A stretch of 64,000 nt of DNA, from positions 1,240,001-1,304,000 of the forward strand of contig NZ_CP084265.1 of NCBI RefSeq assembly GCF_022879595.1, given 5' to 3'. The notes under the pieces were generated by a model. That model made no database searches. It was not told where the DNA came from and saw only the letters and a program-made list of their open reading frames with translations. This document shows positions 21,110 through 31,413 of this stretch, piece by piece. Position numbers and translations under genes: made by a program. Source of the stretch: Caballeronia sp. Lep1P3. Its GTDB lineage: Bacteria; Pseudomonadota; Gammaproteobacteria; Burkholderiales; Burkholderiaceae. Numbering within the stretch: position 1 is the first letter of the stretch; the number at the start of each line of letters is the position of its first letter.

Positions 21110-22306
21110 ATGAACCTGAACTACTCGCCCGCCGACGATGCATTCCGCGCCGATGTCCGCGCGTGGCTCGAAGGCAATCTCCCGGCCGCGCTGCGCGAGA
21201 AGGTTCTCAATCACAAACGTCTGAACCGCGACGACTACGCGTCGTGGCACAGGCTCCTCGGCGCGCGCGGCTGGTCAGCCGCCGCGTGGCCCGAAGAATT
21301 CGGCGGTCCAGGCTGGAACGCCACGCAGCGCCATATCTGGGACGAAGAATGCGCGCGCGCCGGCGCGCCGATCGTCTTGCCATTCGGCGTTTCGATGGTC
21401 GCGCCGGTGCTGATGAAATTCGGCAGCGAAGCGCAGAAGTCCTATTTCCTTCCTCGCATTCTCGACGGCACCGACTGGTGGTGTCAGGGCTATTCGGAGC
21501 CGGGCGCCGGCTCGGATCTCGCGTCGCTGCGCACGCGCGCCGACCGACGCGGCGATCGCTATGTCGTCAACGGGCAAAAGACGTGGACGACGCTCGGCCA
21601 GCACGCCGACATGATGTTCTGTCTCGTTCGCACGGACAGCGGCGCAAAAAAGCAGGAAGGCATTTCGTTTCTGCTCATCGATATGAGAACGCCCGGCATC
21701 ACCGTGCGGCCGATCATGACGCTCGACGAAGATCACGAAGTCAACGAAGTCTTCTTCGAGGATGTCGAAGTGCCGATCGGCAATCTCGTCGGCGAGGAAA
21801 ATCGCGGCTGGACTTATGCGAAGTTTCTGCTCGGCCACGAGCGGACGGGCATCGCGCGGGTCGGGCAGTCCAAGCGCGAGTTGTCGTTTCTGAAGCGCCT
21901 CGCGCTCGACAGAAGGAAGCGCGGCAAGCCGCTGCTGCACGATCCGCTTTTCGCGGCAAAAGTCGCCGCGCTCGAAATCGAGTTGATGGCGCTCGAAGTG
22001 ACCGTGCAGCGCGTGGTGGCGAGTGAGGCCGGCGCGAAGGGTCCGGGCCCGGAAGCATCGATGCTGAAGATCAAGGGCACGGAAGTGCAGCAGGCGCTCA
22101 CCGAACTGATGTTCGAAGCCATCGGCCCGCAGGCTGCCGCTTTCGATCCCGCGTTCCTCGAAGGCGAGCGCGAAACGAGCATCACCGGCGACGACTCCGC
22201 CGCGCCGCTCGCTGCGCACTACTTCAACATGCGCAAGACATCGATCTATGGCGGCTCGAACGAAATACAGAAGAACATCGTCGCGCAGATGATTCTCGGG
22301 CTTTAG
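21110..22306 (+). CDS. Acyl-CoA dehydrogenase, large subunit of a probable heteromeric pair
   Basis: This 398-residue flavoprotein should oxidise an acyl-CoA to the 2-enoyl-CoA. FAD-binding blocks are present (QGYSEPGAGSDLASLRT, VVNGQKTWTT) and the C-terminal segment reads KTSIYGGSNEIQKNI. The medium-chain type base at the YEG position is Gly here, while HERTGIA in helix G offers a Glu at the place used by isovaleryl-type enzymes. It resembles the PimC large subunit (pimeloyl-CoA) and the paired dehydrogenases of steroid side-chain degradation. The next gene encodes the matching short subunit 9 bases later. Confidence 0.88.
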   Translation: MNLNYSPADDAFRADVRAWLEGNLPAALREKVLNHKRLNRDDYASWHRLLGARGWSAAAWPEEFGGPGWNATQRHIWDEECARAGAPIVLPFGVSMVAPVLMKFGSEAQKSYFLPRILDGTDWWCQGYSEPGAGSDLASLRTRADRRGDRYVVNGQKTWTTLGQHADMMFCLVRTDSGAKKQEGISFLLIDMRTPGITVRPIMTLDEDHEVNEVFFEDVEVPIGNLVGEENRGWTYAKFLLGHERTGIARVGQSKRELSFLKRLALDRRKRGKPLLHDPLFAAKVAALEIELMALEVTVQRVVASEAGAKGPGPEASMLKIKGTEVQQALTELMFEAIGPQAAAFDPAFLEGERETSITGDDSAAPLAAHYFNMRKTSIYGGSNEIQKNIVAQMILGL

Positions 22307-22315
22307 GAGCAGCGC

Positions 22316-23446
22316 ATGGACTTCGATTTCACCGATGAACAAACGCAGTTCCGCGACGCGCTGCGCCGCTATCTCGACAACGAGTACGGCTTCGATGCGC
22401 GCCAGAAAATCGTTTCGTCGGATGCGGGCGTCGATGACAAGCACTGGCGCGCATTCGCCGAACTCGGTCTGCTTGCGCTGCCGGTGCCACAGGCGCACGG
22501 CGGTTTCGACGGCGGCGCTGTCGATATGCTCGTCGTCATGCAGGAACTCGGGCGCGCGCGGGTCGTGGAGCCGGTCTGGGCGACGGCGGCGGGCATCGAG
22601 GCGCTGCGGCTCGCTGAGACGAGCGCAACCGACGTCGCCGGACCGTTGCTCGAACGCGCGGCGCGCGGGGAAGTGCGGCTCGCGGTCGCGTTCACGGAAC
22701 CGCACGCACGCTACGATCTCTTCGACCTGCGCACGACAGCCGAAGCCGTTTCGGGGCGCCATGTGCTGTCGGGCACGAAGTCGATGGTGCAGCACGGCGC
22801 GCAGGCCGATGGCTGGATCGTGCCGGCGCGGCTGGACGGCGAAATCGCGCTTTTCCTCGTCGCGCGCGACGCGGCGAACGCGAACGTCACCGAATACCGG
22901 ACCATCGACGGCCAGCGCGCGGCCACGCTCGTCTTCAGTGACACGCCCGCGACGCGGCTCGATGGCGCCAGCACCGGCGCGGCGACGCTCGAACGCATCG
23001 CGGATTACGCGACGTTTCTTCTATGCGCCGAAGCGCTCGGCGCGCTCGATGCGCTCAACCGCGCCACCGTCGCCTACACGAAGGAGCGCCAGCAATTCGG
23101 CGTGCCGATTGCGCGCTTCCAGGCGTTGCAGCATCGCATGGTCGATATGCTGATCCACACGGAACAGGCGCGCTCGATTACGTATCTCGCCGCCGCGCGC
23201 TATGACAGCCCCGACGCCGCGACGCGCGCGCAGGCGGTTTCGGCGGCGAAGGCGCGCATCGGTCAGGCTGCGCGCTTCGTCGGTCAGAACGCGGTGCAAC
23301 TGCACGGCGGCATGGGCATGACCAACGAGTTACCGGTGGCGCACTGGTTCAAACGGCTGTCGATCATCGAGACGACGCTCGGCGACGTCGATCATCATCT
23401 CGAGCGTTTCGCGTCGCTGCCCGCATTCGCTGCGACCAATCTCTGA
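22316..23446 (+). CDS. Acyl-CoA dehydrogenase, small subunit of a probable heteromeric pair
   Basis: This 376-residue acyl-CoA dehydrogenase family member resembles PimD. The N-terminal domain (MDFDFTDEQTQFRD) and C-terminal helices (TVAYTKERQQFGVPIARFQALQ, AVQLHGGMGMTNELPVAHWFKRL) are clear. The middle domain is divergent and lacks the usual TEPxxGSD flavin motif, having FTEPHARYDLFD instead. Helix and loop positions that supply the catalytic Glu in other members hold no obvious Glu. A structural or flavin-sharing subunit paired with the preceding gene is therefore likely, which is inference. Confidence 0.87.
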   Translation: MDFDFTDEQTQFRDALRRYLDNEYGFDARQKIVSSDAGVDDKHWRAFAELGLLALPVPQAHGGFDGGAVDMLVVMQELGRARVVEPVWATAAGIEALRLAETSATDVAGPLLERAARGEVRLAVAFTEPHARYDLFDLRTTAEAVSGRHVLSGTKSMVQHGAQADGWIVPARLDGEIALFLVARDAANANVTEYRTIDGQRAATLVFSDTPATRLDGASTGAATLERIADYATFLLCAEALGALDALNRATVAYTKERQQFGVPIARFQALQHRMVDMLIHTEQARSITYLAAARYDSPDAATRAQAVSAAKARIGQAARFVGQNAVQLHGGMGMTNELPVAHWFKRLSIIETTLGDVDHHLERFASLPAFAATNL

Positions 23447-23467
23447 CGTTCTATCGAGGACTTGCGC

Positions 23468-23926
23468 ATGACATACAGCTTTGAGGATTTCGAGATCGGC
23501 TCCGCGGTGACGCTCGGCGCGCACACCTTCACGCGCGAAGAAATCGTGGAGTTCGCGAGCCGCTACGATCCGCAACCGTTCCATCTTTCGGAGGAAGCGG
23601 GCAGGGCATCGCATTTCGGCGGGCTCGTCGCGAGCGGCTGGAACACCTGTTCCGCGATGATGGGCGTTCTCGTGCGCGACATGCTCGCCGACTCCACGTC
23701 GATGGGCTCGCCCGGCCTCGACAATATCCGCTGGCTGAAGCCCGTGCGCGTCGGCGATTCGGTGCGGCTCACGGTGCGCGTGCTCGACAAGCGCGTGTCG
23801 AAGAGCAAGCCGGATCGCGGCATCGTGTCGACGCGCTGGGAAGCGCACAATCAGGACGGCGAACTGGTCCTGACCGTCGATTCCGCCGCGCTCTTCGGCT
23901 TGCGCGAGGCCGCTCGCGACGCGTGA
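23468..23926 (+). CDS. MaoC-like (R)-hydratase
   Basis: This 152-residue hot-dog fold protein should hydrate 2-enoyl-CoA to (R)-3-hydroxyacyl-CoA. The hydratase motif is present: the Asp and His of YDPQPFH and the Gly/Ser of FGGLVASGW. GAGGA at 23456-23460 supports the ATG at 23468 over the TTG two codons upstream. It is the last gene of the three-gene plus-strand operon, and its stop faces the GST stop with two bases between them. Confidence 0.9.
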   Translation: MTYSFEDFEIGSAVTLGAHTFTREEIVEFASRYDPQPFHLSEEAGRASHFGGLVASGWNTCSAMMGVLVRDMLADSTSMGSPGLDNIRWLKPVRVGDSVRLTVRVLDKRVSKSKPDRGIVSTRWEAHNQDGELVLTVDSAALFGLREAARDA

Positions 23927-23928
23927 GT

Positions 23929-24618
23929 TCAGCGCTTCGCGTATTGCGTCGCGCCGAAAAGCACTTCCTTCTCCTTGTCGGTGAACGGCTTGCGTTCGCG
24001 CGCGAGCACTTGCACGCCCCGCTCGGCCGCTGGCCGCGCGGCGATGGCATCGAACCAGCGCTTCACGTTCGGAAATTCATCGAGCACGATGCCCTGATTT
24101 TCCCAGGAGCGCGTCCACGGAAACGTCGCGATGTCGGCGATCGTGTATTCGCTTCCCGCGAGATACCGCGTCACGCCGAGCTGCTTGTCCATCACGCCAT
24201 AGAGCCGGCGCGTCTCGTTCGTGTAGCGGTTGATCGCGTAGTCGATCCTCTCGGGCGCGTAATTGCGAAAGTGATGCGTCTGCCCGAGCATCGGCCCGAT
24301 GCCGCCCATCTGGAACATGAGCCATTGCATCGTCGTGTAGCGGCCGATGGCGTCGGCGGGCAGGAATTTTCCGGTTTTCTCGGCGAGATAAACGAGGATC
24401 GCTCCGGATTCGAAGAGCGCGAACGGCTTTCCCTCGGGGCCGTCGTTGTCGATGATCGCGGGAATCTTGTTGTTCGGGCTGATCGCAAGAAAGTCGGGCT
24501 TGAACTGGTCGCCCGCGCCGATATCGACGGCATGCGCCCGGTATTCGAGGCCGGTTTCCTCCAGCATGATGTGAATCTTGTGGCCGTTGGGCGTCGGCCA
24601 GCTATACACGTCGATCAT
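23929..24618 (-). CDS. yfcG: Glutathione S-transferase, YfcG/Nu-class disulfide reductase-like
   Basis: This 229-residue protein closely follows E. coli YfcG, which reduces disulfides with glutathione. The thioredoxin-like domain starts MIDVYSWPTPNGHKIHIMLEE, where the TPNGHK loop replaces the usual catalytic Tyr or Ser, then NNKIPAIIDNDG with the cis-Pro and LFESGAILVYLAEKTG. The all-helical C-terminal half has LQWLMF-like and MGGIGPMLGQTHHF segments. It is the last gene of the minus-strand acyl-CoA operon, 91 bases after the ACAD11-like gene. Its role there could be protection against reactive aldehydes or thiols, which is inference. Confidence 0.9.
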   Translation of the reverse strand: MIDVYSWPTPNGHKIHIMLEETGLEYRAHAVDIGAGDQFKPDFLAISPNNKIPAIIDNDGPEGKPFALFESGAILVYLAEKTGKFLPADAIGRYTTMQWLMFQMGGIGPMLGQTHHFRNYAPERIDYAINRYTNETRRLYGVMDKQLGVTRYLAGSEYTIADIATFPWTRSWENQGIVLDEFPNVKRWFDAIAARPAAERGVQVLARERKPFTDKEKEVLFGATQYAKR

Positions 24619-24709: not shown

Positions 24710-25936
24710 TCAGGCGCGCGGCGCGTCGTGCTTCGCGAGTTCGAGTTTCGCGATCGCGTTGCGATGCACTTCGTCCGGGCCGTCCGCGAGCCGCAGCGTG
24801 CGCGCCGATGCATACGCATACGCGAGCGGAAAGTCGTCGCAGATGCCGCCCGCGCCGTGCGCCTGAATCGCCCAGTCGATCACCTGACACGCGACGTTCG
24901 GCGCGACGACCTTGATCATCGCGATCTCGCCGCGCGCGCCCTTGTTGCCGACGGTGTCCATCATGTACGCGGCCTTGAGCGTAAGCAATCGCGCCTGCTC
25001 GATCATGATGCGCGCCTCGGCGATACGCTCCTGCGTCACGCCATGTTGCGCGATCGGCTTGCCGAACGCGACGCGCGACAGCGTGCGCTTCGTCATCATG
25101 TCGAGCGCGCGCTCGGCGAGCCCGATCAGCCGCATGCAGTGATGAATGCGGCCCGGCCCGAGCCGCCCTTGCGCGATTTCGAAGCCGCGTCCGGCGCCGA
25201 GCAGCATGTTCGTGGCGGGCACGCGCACGTTTTCGAGCGTGATGTCCATGTGGCCGTGCGGCGCGTCGTCGTAGCCGAACACGTTGAGCGGCCGCCGGAC
25301 GGTGATGCCCGGCGCGTCTGCCGGCACGAGGATCATCGACTGCTGCGCGTGCTTCGGCGCATCGGGATCGGTCTTGCCCATCACGATGAACACCTTGCAG
25401 CGCGGATCGCCCGCACCGGAGGACCACCACTTGTGGCCGTCGATCACATAGCTGTCGCCGTCGCGCACGATGTTGCAGCGGATATTAGTCGCATCCGACG
25501 ATGCCACTTCCGGCTCCGTCATCAGAAACGCCGAGCGGATTTCGCCGCGCAAGAGCGGTTCGAGCCATTGCGCCTTTTGCGCGGCCGTCCCGTAACGCTC
25601 GATGGTTTCCATGTTGCCCGTATCGGGCGCGCTGCAATTGAACACTTCGGGCGCCCACGGCACGCGGCCCATGATCTCGCAAAGCGGCGCGTATTCGAGA
25701 TTCGTCAGGCCCGCGCCGCGCTCGGATGCGGGCAGAAAGAGATTCCACAATCCTTCGCCGCGCGCTGTCTCCTTCAGGCTTTCGATGAGACGCGTCGGCG
25801 TCCACGCGTTGCCCGACGCGCGGTTCGCGGCGATCTCGTCGGCGTAGGCGCGCTCGCTCGGGTAAATGTGCGCGTCGAAGAACGCGAGCAGCTTTTCGCG
25901 CAGCGCGTCAACCTTGAGCGTGTAATCGAAGTTCAT
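24710..25936 (-). CDS. ACAD11-like acyl-CoA dehydrogenase
   Basis: This 408-residue protein follows the C-terminal half of mammalian ACAD10/ACAD11 closely. Diagnostic blocks are [61 protein letters not shown] and [19 protein letters not shown]. An Asp (ADGPDEVH) stands where medium-chain enzymes have the catalytic Glu, as in ACAD11. Mammalian ACAD10/11 are reported to act on 4-hydroxyacyl-CoA phosphorylated by their kinase domain, losing phosphate to give an enoyl-CoA. Here the kinase is the preceding gene, 22 bases upstream. The substrate is inferred from that family knowledge. Confidence 0.92.
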
Positions 25937-25958
25937 GCGGTTGCCTCGCGGTTAGCGT

Positions 25959-27062
25959 TCATCGGCCGACTTTCTGCGCGTATTTCCACGCGAGTTCGGC
26001 CATCGGGCGGGCGCGCCGCCCCGCGTCGATGGCCTGCGCGCTCGCGGCGGTGCCATCCGTGACGCGCTTCATGATGCCCTGCAGGATCGCCGCGATGCGG
26101 AACATGTTGTACGCGAGATAGAAATTCCAGTCGCCATCGGGACGCAAGCCGGTGCGCTCGCCATATCGCGCGACGTAGGCCGCTTCATCGGGGATGCCGA
26201 GCGCGGCCCAGTCGAGTCCCGCGATGCCCCGGAACTGCGATGGATCCACATGCCACGCCATGCAGTGATACGCGAAATCGGCGAGCGGATCGCCGAGCGT
26301 CGAGAGTTCCCAGTCCAGCACGGCCAGCACGCGCGGCTCGTTCGGATGAAAGATGAGATTGTCGAGCCGGAAGTCGCCATGGACGACGGTGGCCTTGGCT
26401 TCGGGAGACGACGGAATGTGCCGCGGCAGCCACTCGATCAGGCGGTTCATGGCGTCGATCTTCTCCGTCTCCGATGCGACGTACTGCTTGCTCCAGCGCC
26501 CGATCTGCCGCTCGAAGTAATTGCCGGGCTTCCCGTAACCGGAAAGTCCCGCGGTTTCGACATCGACGCTATGGAGCGCGGCGATCACGCGGTTCGTTTC
26601 GTCGTAGATTGCGGCGCGTTCGGCCGGCGTCATGCCGGGCAGCGAAGGATCCCACAGCACGCGGCCTTCGACGAATTCCATCACGTAGAACGCGCGGCCC
26701 ATCACGCTTTCGTCCTCGCACAAGGCGAGCATGCGCGCGACGGGCACATCGGTTCCGGCGAGCGCGTCCATCACGCGATACTCGCGCTCGATGGCATGCG
26801 CGGACGGCAACAGTTTCGCGGCGGGGCCGGGCTTCGCGCGCATTACATAGCTGCGCGACGGCGTGACGAGCTTGAACGTCGGGTTGGATTGCCCGCCCGC
26901 GAACTGCTCGACGGCAAGCGGTCCCGCGAAACCATCGACATGCGCGGCGAGCCATGCGGCGAGCGCGTGCTCGTCGAAACGCTGACGCTCCTGCACGGGC
27001 CGCGTGCCTTCGAATGCTGAAAAATCGGAGTGCTTGTTCTTATGCGTGTCGTTGTTTGCCAT
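25959..27062 (-). CDS. APH-family kinase like the N-terminal half of ACAD10/11
   Basis: This 367-residue aminoglycoside-phosphotransferase-fold protein is probably a hydroxyacyl-CoA kinase. It has AGGQSNPTF (nucleotide loop), KLLPSAHAIEREYRVM, FYVMEFVEGRVLWDP, the catalytic loop VVHGDFRLDNLIFHP with Asp and Asn, and the metal-binding VLDWELSTLGDPLADFAYH. This order and wording match the kinase half of ACAD11 and the LvaA kinase that phosphorylates 4-hydroxyvaleryl-CoA in levulinate catabolism. The start at 27062 is chosen because the upstream frame has no family match. Antibiotic resistance is unlikely from context. Confidence 0.9.
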   Translation of the reverse strand: MANNDTHKNKHSDFSAFEGTRPVQERQRFDEHALAAWLAAHVDGFAGPLAVEQFAGGQSNPTFKLVTPSRSYVMRAKPGPAAKLLPSAHAIEREYRVMDALAGTDVPVARMLALCEDESVMGRAFYVMEFVEGRVLWDPSLPGMTPAERAAIYDETNRVIAALHSVDVETAGLSGYGKPGNYFERQIGRWSKQYVASETEKIDAMNRLIEWLPRHIPSSPEAKATVVHGDFRLDNLIFHPNEPRVLAVLDWELSTLGDPLADFAYHCMAWHVDPSQFRGIAGLDWAALGIPDEAAYVARYGERTGLRPDGDWNFYLAYNMFRIAAILQGIMKRVTDGTAASAQAIDAGRRARPMAELAWKYAQKVGR

Positions 27063-27100
27063 CGTCTCCTCCGTTCTTGTTTGCGCGGCGCGCGCCATGC

Positions 27101-27826
27101 CTAGTCCATGCCGCTCGCCTTGAATCGCACGAATTGCGCGTACAGCAGTTCCATGGTCGTGTTGCGGACGTCCGCATGCAGCGGCGAGGGCGGCGAATGA
27201 TTGATCGCATGCACGACCCAGTCGCCGGGCTTGCCGCCGACGTCGAGCGCGTTGATGCAGCCGGTCGCCTGCGACAGATGCCCGAAGAACGCGCGTCCGC
27301 CAGCGGTAATTGCATGCGAGAGCAGCGCGCGGTTGACGCCGCCGTGCAGCACGAGCAGCACTGTGTCCCATGACGTGTCCGCGCGCAGCTTCGCCATCGC
27401 GGGCAACGCGCGGTCGAGCAATTCGCCGATGGTCTCGCCGCCGAGAAAGCGCGTCTCTTCGGGCACGACGCCGTCGAAAACGGAAAGAAACGCGCGCTCG
27501 ATGTCGCTCGTCGAAAGATTGGCGAGCCGGCCGCCGCGAATCTCCTGCCATTCGGGCCAGATTTCCGGCTCGATTCGCTGGCCGGTTTCTGCAAGCACGC
27601 GCTGCGCGGTTTCGATGGTGCGCGGCAGGCCGCTCGCGATCACGCGGTCGAAGCGGATGTTCTGCGCCGCGAACTCGCGGCCCGCCGCGCTCGCTTCCTC
27701 GCGGCCGCGTTCGTTGAGCGGCACGCTTTCGGGATCGATCGCGCGGCCGGTGTCGTCGAAGTAGGTCACGTCGCCGTGACGCATCAGGAAGATGCGGCGG
27801 CGCTTGGGCAATTCGTAGTGAGCCAT
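27101..27826 (-). CDS. Histidine phosphatase family protein
   Basis: This 241-residue protein has the phosphoglycerate-mutase-like fold. The catalytic His and Arg lie in FLMRHGDVTYFD, a second Arg in ASGLPRTIETAQ, the acid in EWQEIRGG and the second His in VLHGGVNRALL. It therefore should remove or transfer phosphate from a small molecule. It sits between the crotonase (4 bases upstream) and the APH kinase (38 bases downstream), inside a pathway that seems to use a phosphorylated acyl-CoA. A repair or phosphate-recycling role is inference; the cobalamin-phosphate phosphatase branch cannot be excluded. Confidence 0.88.
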   Translation of the reverse strand: MAHYELPKRRRIFLMRHGDVTYFDDTGRAIDPESVPLNERGREEASAAGREFAAQNIRFDRVIASGLPRTIETAQRVLAETGQRIEPEIWPEWQEIRGGRLANLSTSDIERAFLSVFDGVVPEETRFLGGETIGELLDRALPAMAKLRADTSWDTVLLVLHGGVNRALLSHAITAGGRAFFGHLSQATGCINALDVGGKPGDWVVHAINHSPPSPLHADVRNTTMELLYAQFVRFKASGMD

Positions 27827-27830
27827 GCGT

Positions 27831-28619
27831 TCAGCGATAGTTCGGCTGGCGTTTTTCGAGGAACGCGGTGATGCCTTCGAGCGCATCGCCGCGATGGAGC
27901 GCATCCACGAAAGCGTCGCGTTCGAGATCGAGATGCGCGGCGAGCGGCTGCACGTCCGCCGCGTTGATGAGCGACTTGATGCGCGCGAGCGCCTTCGGCG
28001 ACACGCTGCCGAGATCGTCGGCCCACGCGATGGCGGCATCGAGCGCGATGCCTTTTTTCGTCAGCCGGTTGACGACGCCGACTTCATGCAGACGCGGCGC
28101 GCCGATCGGCTTGGCTTCGAGCAGCACTTCGCTCGCGAGCGTGCGCGGCAATGCGCGCGCGAGCAGCCACGAAGCGCCGCCGTCCGGCGTGAGACCGACG
28201 CGCGCATACGACATGATGAATCTCGCGTCGTCGGCGGCGACGATCAAATCGCATGCGAGCGCAAGCGAGAACCCCGCGCCGGCCGCCGCGCCTTCGACGG
28301 CCGCGATCACCGGTTTCGTCGATGCCCTGAGCGCGCTGATCCATTCCGCCAGCATGTCGATGCTCTGCGCCTGCACCGACGGGTCTTTCGCGCGATTCTC
28401 CAGCAGCCGGTTCAGATTGCCGCCCGCGCAGAAAAAATTGTCGGCGCCCGTCAGCACGATCGCGCGCACGGAGTTGTCGCGCTCCGCCGTGGACAGCGCC
28501 TCGATGCCGGCCGCGTACATGTCGGGATGCAGCGCGTTGCGCGCGCCCGGATTCGACAGTTTGAGCACGAGCGTGGTGTCGCTGCCGGCGGGACGGTGAG
28601 TCAGCAATTCGGCGCTCAT
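27831..28619 (-). CDS. Enoyl-CoA hydratase/isomerase family protein
   Basis: This 262-residue crotonase-fold protein has the oxyanion hole blocks FCAGGNLNRLL and EGAAAGAGFSLALACDL. In the second active-site loop it reads VGLTPDGGASWLLARALP, with Asp where true hydratases often have Glu. This pattern is common in PaaG-like isomerases, so the exact reaction (hydration or double-bond shift) is open. Its ATG overlaps the upstream dehydrogenase stop by 4 bases, a sign of translational coupling. Within this operon it probably acts on the enoyl-CoA made by the ACAD11-like enzyme. Confidence 0.9.
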   Translation of the reverse strand: MSAELLTHRPAGSDTTLVLKLSNPGARNALHPDMYAAGIEALSTAERDNSVRAIVLTGADNFFCAGGNLNRLLENRAKDPSVQAQSIDMLAEWISALRASTKPVIAAVEGAAAGAGFSLALACDLIVAADDARFIMSYARVGLTPDGGASWLLARALPRTLASEVLLEAKPIGAPRLHEVGVVNRLTKKGIALDAAIAWADDLGSVSPKALARIKSLINAADVQPLAAHLDLERDAFVDALHRGDALEGITAFLEKRQPNYR

Positions 28620-30157
28620 CTGAGCTCCTCGGTATGGGTGAGCGAAAGGCCGAGCTGCGCCCGGCGCGCGAGCCACGGAGACGGGCGGTAGCGCGGATCG
28701 CCGAGCACGCTTTGCATGTTGCGCAGAATGGTGAGGATGTTCGACGCGCCGAGCGAATCGCCGAGCGCGAGCGGCCCGCGCGGATAACCGAGCCCGAGCG
28801 TCACGGCGAGGTCGATGTCCTCGGGCGTCGCGATGCCTTGCTGCGCGATATCGCAACCGATGTTCACGATGGTCGCGACCACGCGCTGCGCGACGAAGCC
28901 GGTCGAATCGCGGATCACGGTGACGGGCACGCCGTCGAAGGCGAACAGCGCGTGCGCGGCGTCGCGCATGGCGGGCGTCGTCGCGGGCGTCGTCATGATC
29001 GTGCGGCGCGCGACGGTATCGAGCGGAAAGAGCGTGTCGACGGCGACGACGCGCGTGGCATCGAGATGTTCGGCGATCGCGCTCGTGGTCGCATCGAAGC
29101 CGAGCGGCGTGACGACGATGAGCGAATCCGGCTCCGGCGTGTGGCCCGCATCGATATGCACGGAGCAATCGCACTTGGCGATCAGCTTGAGCACTTCTTC
29201 GCGCCCGGCGTGGGAAGCGCGGCTGATCCACACGCGCGTCGGCAACTGCGTGGGCGCTGCGGGTTCGTCGGGCACTTGCTGCTTGCCATCGACATAACGA
29301 TAAAAGCCTTCGCCCGCCTTGCGCCCGATGAGCCCGCCCGCGAGCCGCGTGCCGGTGATCGGCGACGGCGTGAAGCGCGGCTCTTCGTAAAACTGATGGT
29401 AGATGGATTCCATCACCGGATGCGACACGTCGAGCGCGGTCAGATCCAGCAGTTCGAACGGTCCGAGCCGAAAGCCCGCCTGTTCGCGCATGATGCGGTC
29501 GATGTCCGCGAAACTCGCGACACCTTCGCTCGCCACGCGCAGGCCTTCGGTGTTCATGCCGCGGCCCGCGTGGTTGACGATGAACCCCGGCATGTCCTTC
29601 GCGCGCACCGGCGTATGCCCGATGCGACGCGCGAATTCCATGAGCGCGTCGCCGGCCTGGCGATCTCCGCGCAGGCCGTCGATGACTTCGACGACGCGCA
29701 TCAGCGGCACGGGGTTGAAGAAGTGAAAGCCCGCGACGCGTTCCGGTTTCGCGCAGCCGGCCGCGATCGCGGTGATCGACAGCGAAGACGTATTCGACGC
29801 CAGAATGCAGCGCTCGCCGACGACCGCTTCGAGTTCGCGAAACAGCTCGCGCTTGATATCGAGTTTCTCGACGATCGCCTCGATGACGACATCGCAATCG
29901 GCCAGCTCGCTCGTGTCTTGCGCGTCGTGCACGCGGGCGAGCGCGGCGTGCGCGTCCGTTTCCTTGAGCTTGCCCTTGGCGGCGAGCTTGCCGAGCGTAT
30001 CGGAGAGATACGCGCGCGCGGCATCGAGCGCTTTCGGGTTCGTGTCGTAAAGACGCACGGTCAGACCGGCGAGCGCCGCAATCTGCGCGATGCCGCGTCC
30101 CATCGCGCCGCTGCCGACGATGCCGAGTGTCTCGATCCTGTATTCCTGGCCAGTCAT
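28616..30157 (-). CDS. 3-hydroxyacyl-CoA dehydrogenase, PaaH-type
   Basis: This 513-residue NAD-dependent enzyme oxidises 3-hydroxyacyl-CoA to 3-ketoacyl-CoA. The Rossmann motif GIVGSGAMGRGIAQIAA is at residues 10-26. The catalytic residues lie in ASNTSSLSI and GFHFFNPVPLM. Two C-terminal 3HCDH domains follow (DMPGFIVNHAGR near residue 189 and DSTGFVAQRVVATIV further on), which gives the long PaaH-like form rather than the 280-residue short form. AGGAG lies about 13 bases before the ATG at 30157. It is the first gene of the six-gene minus-strand operon, though a longer transcript from upstream is possible. Confidence 0.93.
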   Translation of the reverse strand: MTGQEYRIETLGIVGSGAMGRGIAQIAALAGLTVRLYDTNPKALDAARAYLSDTLGKLAAKGKLKETDAHAALARVHDAQDTSELADCDVVIEAIVEKLDIKRELFRELEAVVGERCILASNTSSLSITAIAAGCAKPERVAGFHFFNPVPLMRVVEVIDGLRGDRQAGDALMEFARRIGHTPVRAKDMPGFIVNHAGRGMNTEGLRVASEGVASFADIDRIMREQAGFRLGPFELLDLTALDVSHPVMESIYHQFYEEPRFTPSPITGTRLAGGLIGRKAGEGFYRYVDGKQQVPDEPAAPTQLPTRVWISRASHAGREEVLKLIAKCDCSVHIDAGHTPEPDSLIVVTPLGFDATTSAIAEHLDATRVVAVDTLFPLDTVARRTIMTTPATTPAMRDAAHALFAFDGVPVTVIRDSTGFVAQRVVATIVNIGCDIAQQGIATPEDIDLAVTLGLGYPRGPLALGDSLGASNILTILRNMQSVLGDPRYRPSPWLARRAQLGLSLTHTEELR

Positions 30158-30225: not shown

Positions 30226-31413
30226 CTACAGCTTGCGCAGGCGGTCGAGCGCGAGCGCGAGTGTTTCTTCCTTCTTCGCGAAGCAAAAGCGCACGACGCC
30301 GGATTCATGGCTCTCGTGATAGAACGCCGACACCGGAATCGCCGCGACGCCGATCTCGCTCGTGAGCCATTGCGAGAACTCGGCCTCGGGCATGTCGCTG
30401 ATCGCCGAATAGTCGACGCACTGGAAATACGTGCCGTCGCAGGGCAGAAGCGAGAAGCGCGTATCGGCGAGTCCCGCGCGGAAGAAGTCGCGCTTTTTCT
30501 GATAGAACGCGGGCAGTTCGAGATACGGCGTCGGGTCTTCGAGATAGTGCGCGAGACCGATCTGCATCGGCGTATTCACCGTGAACACGTTGAACTGATG
30601 CACCTTGCGGAATTCCGCGGTCAGCGCGGCGGGCGCGGCCACGTAGCCGATCTTCCAGCCGGTGACGTGAAACGTCTTGCCGAAGCTCGACACGACGAAG
30701 CTGCGTTCGGCGAGTTCGGGGTAGCGCGAGACGCTTTCGTGCGGCGCGCCGTCGTAGACCATGTGTTCGTACACTTCGTCCGAAACGATCAGCACATTCG
30801 TGCCGCGCACGATGTCTTCGAGCTTTCTCACGTCCGCTTCGCGCCACACGCGGCCCGTCGGATTGTGCGGCGTGTTGATCATGAGCAGGCGCGTCTTGGG
30901 CGTGATCGCGGCGGCGATCTTGTCGAACGGAAGCGCGTAGTCCGGCGCTTCGAGCGACACGAAAAACGGCTTGCCGCCCGCGAGCTCGATGGCGGGCACG
31001 TAGCTGTCGTACATCGGCTCGATCACGACGACTTCGTCGCCCGGATGCACGCAGCAGAGCACGGCCGTGAGCAGCGCCTGCGTCGCGCCGGCGGTGACGG
31101 TGATCTCGCGATCGGCGTCGTAGGCGCGGCCGTAGAGCGCTTCGATCTTGCGTGCGATCGCCTGGCGCAGCGGCGCGGCGCCGGCCATCGGCGGGTATTG
31201 GTTGTGGCCGTCGCGCATCGCGGACGCGACGGCATCGACGATGCGCGGGTCGCAGTCGAAATCGGGAAAGCCCTGACCGAGATTGACCGCGCCCTTTTGC
31301 GCGGCGAGCGCGCTCATCACGGTGAAGATGGTCGTGCCGACATTCGGCAGACGAGACGGAAAGGACAGCTCGGGTGACGCTTTGTGCAGTTCGTGCGTGG
31401 CGTTCATGGTCAT
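30226..31413 (-). CDS. PLP-dependent aminotransferase, YbdL/methionine aminotransferase-like
   Basis: This 395-residue fold-type I enzyme probably transaminates methionine and related amino acids with 2-oxo acids. It has NLGQGFPDFDCDP near residue 43, GHNQYPPMAG, the PLP-contact NTPHNPTGRVW, the Asp-Tyr pair in IVSDEVYEHM, and the Schiff-base Lys in SFGKTFHVTGWKIGY. The wording of GQGFPDFD and PHNPTG matches the YbdL group best. A second ATG two codons downstream (31407) could be used. It lies 52 bases after the PIN gene on the same strand. Confidence 0.9.
   Translation of the reverse strand: MTMNATHELHKASPELSFPSRLPNVGTTIFTVMSALAAQKGAVNLGQGFPDFDCDPRIVDAVASAMRDGHNQYPPMAGAAPLRQAIARKIEALYGRAYDADREITVTAGATQALLTAVLCCVHPGDEVVVIEPMYDSYVPAIELAGGKPFFVSLEAPDYALPFDKIAAAITPKTRLLMINTPHNPTGRVWREADVRKLEDIVRGTNVLIVSDEVYEHMVYDGAPHESVSRYPELAERSFVVSSFGKTFHVTGWKIGYVAAPAALTAEFRKVHQFNVFTVNTPMQIGLAHYLEDPTPYLELPAFYQKKRDFFRAGLADTRFSLLPCDGTYFQCVDYSAISDMPEAEFSQWLTSEIGVAAIPVSAFYHESHESGVVRFCFAKKEETLALALDRLRKL

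Follow-up and report, generated by a model that had tools for sequence, protein, structure and literature searches.

The 64,000-nucleotide stretch of Caballeronia sp. Lep1P3 DNA considered here (the window) carries, on its minus strand, a co-directional run of seven genes with intergenic gaps of at most 91 bases, and within this run the open reading frames (ORFs) of an APH-fold kinase and an acyl-CoA dehydrogenase lie side by side. Our analysis indicates, with a probability that we put at about 0.82, that these two genes specify a split ACAD10-type 4-hydroxyacyl-CoA kinase and dehydrogenase. The kinase would use ATP to phosphorylate the 4-hydroxyl of a 4-hydroxyacyl-CoA, and the adjoining FAD dehydrogenase would eliminate the phosphate to yield a 2-enoyl-CoA that could enter general β-oxidation, with CoA ligation, hydration, the second oxidation and thiolysis being left to enzymes encoded elsewhere. 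The source genome (6.18 Mb in 6 contigs) contains one kinase and one dehydrogenase of the type; the runner-up among 13 matches to the dehydrogenase is 39% identical. The closest named kinases are those of Caballeronia (91% identity for C. concitans). A preliminary description of this DNA had delimited both ORFs correctly; they are free of stops and separated by 22 bases, and the motifs it quoted can be located in the kinase (GGQSNPTF at residue 56, VVHGDFRLDN at 226 and VLDWELSTLGDP at 248) and in the dehydrogenase (QGRLGPGR at 256 and ADGPDEVH at 384).

Among sequences in the PDB, the closest solved relative of the kinase is 3dxp (8e-186), which was deposited under the title putative acyl-CoA dehydrogenase, and mouse ACAD11 matches at 6e-78 and 8e-77, as against 1e-4 or weaker for viomycin and macrolide kinases. 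Six animal proteins with the domain make-up of ACAD10, including one from a coral that is annotated just as hypothetical, share 48-54% identity with the kinase, against 42% for mouse ACAD11. Residues D230, N235 and D250 (of a DWE motif) align with the catalytic D220 and N225 of the HGDxxxxN loop and with the DWE of mouse ACAD11, and the arginines of its IEREY and ERQIGRW motifs align with R86 and R176. We rejected an identity as an aminoglycoside or choline kinase on score (36 bits where 205 would be required, together with the weak PDB matches). This was the affiliation that the preliminary description had named as speaking against its assignment, and it is on scores alone that the kinase stands apart from such enzymes, none of which was included in our trees. 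A quick tree of 131 rows places the window kinase, mouse ACAD11 and 3dxp within one set of 111 rows (support 99), and in a more careful tree of 48 rows, built without 3dxp, it falls with ACAD10 and ACAD11 in a set of 41 (98/99), outside of which the kinase of locus L251 also lies. A separate clade unites 9o56 with putative LvaA-like loci (support 99 with 131 rows, 100/99 with 48); we infer this name, as the trees were built without an LvaA sequence. The window kinase lies outside this clade and is 33-34% identical to two of its members. The placements of mouse ACAD11, 9o56 and L251 in the kinase trees are unsure owing to long branches, those of 9o56, L255 and L297 may be wrong in the 131-row tree, and the kinase of L259 (247 amino acids) was left out.

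The dehydrogenase gives a similar picture. Its best PDB matches are mouse ACAD11 (2e-148), 4hr3 (a 'putative acyl-CoA dehydrogenase', 4e-146) and 2wbi (ACAD11, 7e-146), the next dehydrogenase not of ACAD11 type scoring 5.5e-42, and it is 61-66% identical to the six proteins of ACAD10 make-up and 58% identical to mouse ACAD11. The active site of mouse ACAD11 comprises D753, R626, H634 and R637, and in the published model the HCMR motif and the upstream R626 touch the 4-phosphate (PMC12440821). By alignment these residues correspond to D385, R258, H266 and R269 of the window protein, and R258, H266, C267, M268, R269 and D385 are conserved in 82 of 82 rows of ACAD10/11 type, which had been selected by similarity to the window dehydrogenase or as known ACAD10/11 proteins. 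Of 20 other dehydrogenases, 9 also have the catalytic aspartate and 7, which form a sister group, have HCMR, so HCMR alone is not diagnostic. In a quick tree of 51 rows, the window protein forms a clade of 37 rows with ACAD10 and ACAD11 (SH-aLRT 99), contrary to the other outcome that the preliminary description had held to be damaging, namely a dehydrogenase outside this clade; an ordinary FAD dehydrogenase is rejected by PDB scores, residues and tree position alike. Trees, identities and every published catalytic residue tested thus bear out the earlier assignment of the pair to the ACAD10/11 type. The label ACAD11 that came with it needs correcting: by identity both halves are nearer to ACAD10, and it is for this reason that we prefer the name ACAD10. 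We note that dehydrogenases of the sister group, with both HCMR and the catalytic aspartate, lie beside kinases in six loci (L227, L233, L239 and L288-L290). The source genome has a sister-group copy of its own (L003, G000:C2:387050-388057; 39% identical to the window dehydrogenase), and a search for the kinase motif in the 4 kb surrounding it found none.

The chemistry of such a pair is not new, and the pair extends a known enzyme system. ACAD10 lets animal cells burn 4-hydroxy fatty acids. The Burkholderia pseudomallei proteins Q63VL0 (kinase) and Q63VL1 (dehydrogenase) can each substitute in vitro for the matching domain of ACAD10 with 4-hydroxyhexanoyl-CoA, each having been assayed alongside the other half of ACAD10 (PMC11342911). 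The existence of these assays means that the central claim of the preliminary description has essentially been published for close relatives, albeit relatives of a different genus, and it is by sequence inference that the chemistry is transferred to the window proteins.

The two genes also tend to occur together. In a sample of 249 genomes from the phylum (E ≤ 1e-40 for the kinase and ≤ 1e-90 for the dehydrogenase), the kinase was found in 69 and the dehydrogenase in 67, all of them among the 69; the two genomes with a kinase and no dehydrogenase are G012 and G226. In 80 of 80 named loci of Caballeronia/Paraburkholderia type the two genes lie within 2.5 kb of each other on the same strand. Fusions of the two are found as well. 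A search scored 7993 candidates, of which 1045 passed. The 120 best of these are mostly animal ACAD10, and five listed candidates with neither an ACAD10 name nor a HAD domain are kinase-dehydrogenase fusions; two of the five have the halves the other way round, and one has just part of the kinase. P0121 and P0152 have the halves in the opposite order to P0123 and P0177, and the existence of both orders implies that the fusion arose repeatedly.

Several observations weigh against the reading of the pair, or of its surroundings, that we favor. The dehydrogenase lies within 2.5 kb of the kinase in just 20 of 40 chosen loci of the family and 38 of 80 phylum loci; the former had been picked because they lack the histidine phosphatase HP-A described below or hold second kinases (G270 was taken with HP-A), such that their counts are not those of a random sample, and the latter are 80 of 82 kinase matches. 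No ligase, SDR reductase or lactonase is present among the seven genes of the run. The window pair is likely, but only likely, to be orthologous to Q63VL0 and Q63VL1, since this rests on consecutive accession numbers, which suggest adjacent genes, and on a statement of similarity in PMC11342911. Furthermore, HP-A occurs in three genomes (G318, G294 and G389) without the pair, and 14 of the 40 chosen family loci retain the crotonase immediately upstream of the kinase and gave no phosphatase match.

The remaining genes of the run are listed in Table 1. The preliminary description had missed HP-A, which lies between the crotonase and the kinase, as well as the flanking aminotransferase and GST-like genes. 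PimC-like and PimD-like dehydrogenase genes and a gene for a MaoC protein lie on the opposite strand (21110-23926), converging on the run, and are present in 72, 72 and 78, respectively, of the 80 named loci. A promoter and terminator scan gave no signal exceeding that of shuffled sequences.

Table 1. The seven genes of the minus-strand run, from the first to the last (window coordinates)
Gene product	Position	Strand	Remarks
PLP aminotransferase, PRK09082 methionine aminotransferase subfamily	30226..31413	-	first gene of the run
Two-domain 3-hydroxyacyl-CoA dehydrogenase	28616..30157	-	PRK08268; PaaH-like, 427 bits against a PaaH cut-off of 669
Crotonase	27831..28619	-	NCBIfam NF046063 'oxepin-CoA hydrolase, alternative type'; Ser118, Tyr138
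Histidine phosphatase HP-A	27101..27826	-	PF00300; R16, H17, R69, E95, H161
ACAD10/11-type kinase, APH fold, predicted 4-hydroxyacyl-CoA kinase	25959..27062	-	ORF separate from the dehydrogenase
ACAD10/11-type acyl-CoA dehydrogenase, predicted to eliminate phosphate from 4-phosphoacyl-CoA	24710..25936	-	R258, HCMR 266-269, D385
GST-like protein	23929..24618	-	best NCBIfam match PRK13972, below cut-off; last in the run, 91 bases downstream

The presence of a crotonase and a 3-hydroxyacyl-CoA dehydrogenase in the same run had led to the suggestion that the full route from 4-hydroxyacyl-CoA to 3-ketoacyl-CoA is encoded in one operon. The two genes are indeed part of the run, but their assignment to the next two steps is not supported by our findings. 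The crotonase scores 384 bits against NF046063 (cut-off 300), being the sole one of 17 matches in the genome to exceed that cut-off, and with 432 bits it passes the threshold of 274 set for the broader PRK07511 'enoyl-CoA hydratase family protein' too. In an alignment with 3moy, both catalytic glutamates of the hydratase are changed, to Ser118 and Tyr138 (E144 and E164 in the numbering of the rat enzyme), and we therefore rejected a normal enoyl-CoA hydratase. The replaced glutamates and the family score together make it doubtful that this crotonase hydrates the 2-enoyl-CoA, and the claim of a full route is further undercut by three related operons that retain the crotonase and lack the kinase-dehydrogenase pair.

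It is in principle conceivable that the whole run, the pair included, serves a single pathway of aromatic or phenylacetate type, with the pair acting on one of its hydroxylated CoA intermediates. The crotonase scores as an alternative oxepin-CoA hydrolase, which speaks for this. The Paraburkholderia bryophila protein H281DRAFT_04594, described as an alternative oxepin-CoA hydrolase, has Ser118 where the rat enzyme has E144, and its role was predicted from mutant fitness on phenylacetate, on which it is needed (PMC9007349); its likeness to the window crotonase rests on the NCBI family name and the residue number. In addition, the hydroxyacyl-CoA dehydrogenase is PaaH-like, and the crotonase lies within 2.5 kb of the kinase, upstream or downstream and on the same strand, in 79 of the 80 named loci. 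Nevertheless, we consider a single pathway unlikely, as the pair is missing from the three operons that keep crotonase and phosphatase, the kinases of other families sit instead with SDRs (45 of the 80 phylum loci), with a ligase or with regulators, and the phenylacetate route, as described in PMC9007349, has no phosphorylated step. A somewhat less probable alternative still is that the kinase performs the same chemistry in a different pathway, on some other hydroxyacyl-CoA (3-, 5- or omega-hydroxy, or branched). Sequence cannot reveal the substrate, and the animal ACAD enzymes are discussed as covering a wide range of chain lengths (PMC12440821, PMC11342911), but a 2-enoyl-CoA product fits a substituent at position 4, and 4-hydroxyhexanoyl-CoA was the substrate used by the putative B. 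pseudomallei orthologs. We therefore retain the split ACAD10-type pair acting on 4-hydroxyacyl-CoA, and suggest that it is a module inserted into a run whose crotonase and hydroxyacyl-CoA dehydrogenase probably belong to another CoA pathway, such as that for phenylacetate.

Why an ATP-spending kinase should keep a phosphatase alongside is a puzzle that can be put to the test, and we regard the recurrent putative phosphatase partner as the best lead to come from the locus. Histidine phosphatases of branch 1 have a core consisting of an Arg-His pair, a second Arg, a Glu and a second His. The five HP-A residues given in Table 1 are invariant in 17 of 17 aligned rows, and in a wider pattern count over 136 HP-A ORFs, in which a genome may be represented more than once, all have LHGG and 132 have LMRHG; an AlphaFold model of HP-A had a mean pLDDT of 64 and was not used further. 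HP-A was found in 71 of 150 genomes of the family and, at an equal threshold, in 7 of the 249 phylum genomes, the best match outside the family being 38% identical. Of the 71 family genomes, 67 have HP-A 28-239 bases from a kinase, and among the 80 named loci it is present in 78, L157 being cut by a contig end and L171 lacking HP-A. In one of the four exceptions among the 71 (G382) the HP-A locus ends at a contig edge. In G318 and G294 the aminotransferase, hydroxyacyl-CoA dehydrogenase, crotonase, HP-A and GST genes are kept while the kinase and acyl-CoA dehydrogenase are unmatched within 10.7 kb, and G389 is alike except that its hydroxyacyl-CoA dehydrogenase is present in fragments only. 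Seven putatively Comamonadaceae-like loci have the slot of HP-A occupied by members of one gene group, a Crp-type regulator (by Pfam, in L183). Given separations in both directions, HP-A travels with the operon and is strictly bound to neither the kinase nor the crotonase.

HP-A would most likely dephosphorylate 4-phosphoacyl-CoA, or its acid, when elimination lags, a suggestion that is far less sure than the chemistry of the pair. It might drain off or proofread 4-phosphoacyl-CoA, hold back the kinase in the manner of the ACAD10 HAD domain, or be an unrelated neighbor. The HAD domain has one Asp of the DxD motif and negligible phosphatase activity, and its mutation increases kinase activity, which is to say that it restrains the kinase (PMC11342911). 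That HP-A is unconnected with the kinase and just an old neighbor of the crotonase is a possibility we take seriously, while not favoring it. It would explain why HP-A remains with the crotonase where the pair is gone (L298-L300) and why it is absent beside the 14 family kinases that retain the crotonase. It would leave unexplained that every one of the 71 HP-A genomes encodes a kinase of this type, nearby or not, as compared with 100 of the 150 family genomes overall (kinship uncorrected), that a second subfamily, HP-B, accompanies such kinases in 10 families, and that Pseudomonas citronellolis LA18T has a histidine phosphatase gene in its lva-like cluster.

HP-B is another group within PF00300 (assigned by Pfam on 10 members), with 28 representatives among kinase neighbors, both in other families and beside second kinases of the window's own family. 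Its first Arg, His, second Arg and Glu are invariant in 22 aligned rows, a few members having RHA for RHG, and its second catalytic His is replaced by Ser in 22 of 22 rows and in two more copies (SGG, against HGG in the window protein). Ninety percent or more of the 22 rows share a C-terminal His (H223 of L247:6686-7393), which might, to judge by its conservation, replace the missing catalytic His. The model of one member is a confident one with a pLDDT of 92.7, its best PDB match being the phosphoserine phosphatase 4ij5. A profile search found 42 HP-B genes in 40 of the 249 genomes, and the kinase is present in 38 of these 40 as opposed to 31 of the other 209 (Fisher test 2e-23, relatedness ignored). 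Twenty of the 42 genes lie within 4 kb of a kinase, where random placement in a genome of an assumed 4.8 Mb would give about 0.1; this tally includes L211 (G154; 2.3 kb) and G216 (3.6 kb). In the tree, L211 was left unlabeled as a partner, as were L195 and L199 (30 bits, at distances above 2 kb). The other 22 are distant from the kinase, as in all seven Comamonadaceae-like genomes. The HP-B, SDR, SurE and Crp profiles were made from kinase-adjacent copies and are biased toward such copies, and genomes contain 0-10 PF00300 genes, a range that may be low since at most 12 candidates were scored per genome. The HP-B statistics favor a link between kinase and phosphatase in general, while the separations of HP-A weaken that link for the window.

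A third kind of phosphatase, SurE, adjoins the kinase in four loci of two families (by Pfam in three), being the sole SurE match in G193 and one of two in the other three genomes. On the 131-row kinase tree, the presence or absence of any phosphatase changed at least 12 times, gains being indistinguishable from losses. We tentatively propose, at somewhat less than even odds, that phosphatases are standing partners of these kinases, recruited more than once from unrelated folds (the intact HP-A in Burkholderiaceae, HP-B, SurE and the HAD domain of ACAD10); they may remove or proofread 4-phosphoacyl-CoA, or else keep the kinase in check. If this were true, control by kinase and phosphatase would be general to the pathway and the HAD domain of ACAD10 would gain a bacterial counterpart. 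PF00300 was found fused to the kinase or dehydrogenase in none of the best 120 of the 1045 fusion candidates, and the listings of our literature text searches showed no paper on a phosphatase-kinase link besides PMC6692424. We note that L224-L226 and L231 have clusters of dehydrogenase, SDR, kinase and SurE genes, followed in L224 by a gene for an AMP-dependent ligase (Pfam); judging from gene content, such a cluster is an lva-like set with SurE as a possible phosphatase. In L240, L241, L243, L247 and L249 (putatively Pseudomonadaceae-like), the genes follow one another as HP-B, a protein of ~94-110 amino acids, the kinase and an SDR-like protein of 255 amino acids. The small protein has an SCP2 domain (Pfam, L241), and the ACAD10/11-type dehydrogenase is encoded elsewhere in those genomes. 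By analogy with LvaB, the SCP2 protein may be a small partner of the kinase.

Among known systems, lvaABCDE of Pseudomonas putida and the lva-like cluster of P. citronellolis LA18T share with the window pair the route through a phosphorylated 4-hydroxyacyl-CoA (PMC6692424; our account of lva also draws on PMC11342911 and PMC12440821). Unlike them, the window has no SDR, AMP-ligase or LvaB-sized gene, and its kinase belongs to another clade; with gaps of at most 91 bases there is no room for LvaB in the run, and we rejected an lva operon on these grounds. According to PMC6692424, the P. citronellolis cluster has the histidine phosphatase gene, lvaB was not found in it, and the authors suggest that the phosphatase may dephosphorylate 4-phosphovaleryl-CoA. 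Animal ACAD11, for which there are solved structures (8v3u and 8v3v), has the same catalytic residues as the window pair, but it is a single fused chain, has been published as peroxisomal and is the less similar of the two animal enzymes. ACAD10 has the same residues and the higher identity; it combines HAD, kinase and dehydrogenase in a single chain, whereas the window encodes the latter two as separate ORFs, and none of the seven proteins of the run is a HAD protein, a histidine phosphatase gene being present instead. ACAD10 is itself cut between kinase and dehydrogenase (PMC11342911). Bacteria provide such parts as separate proteins, each open to deletion and assay in its own right.

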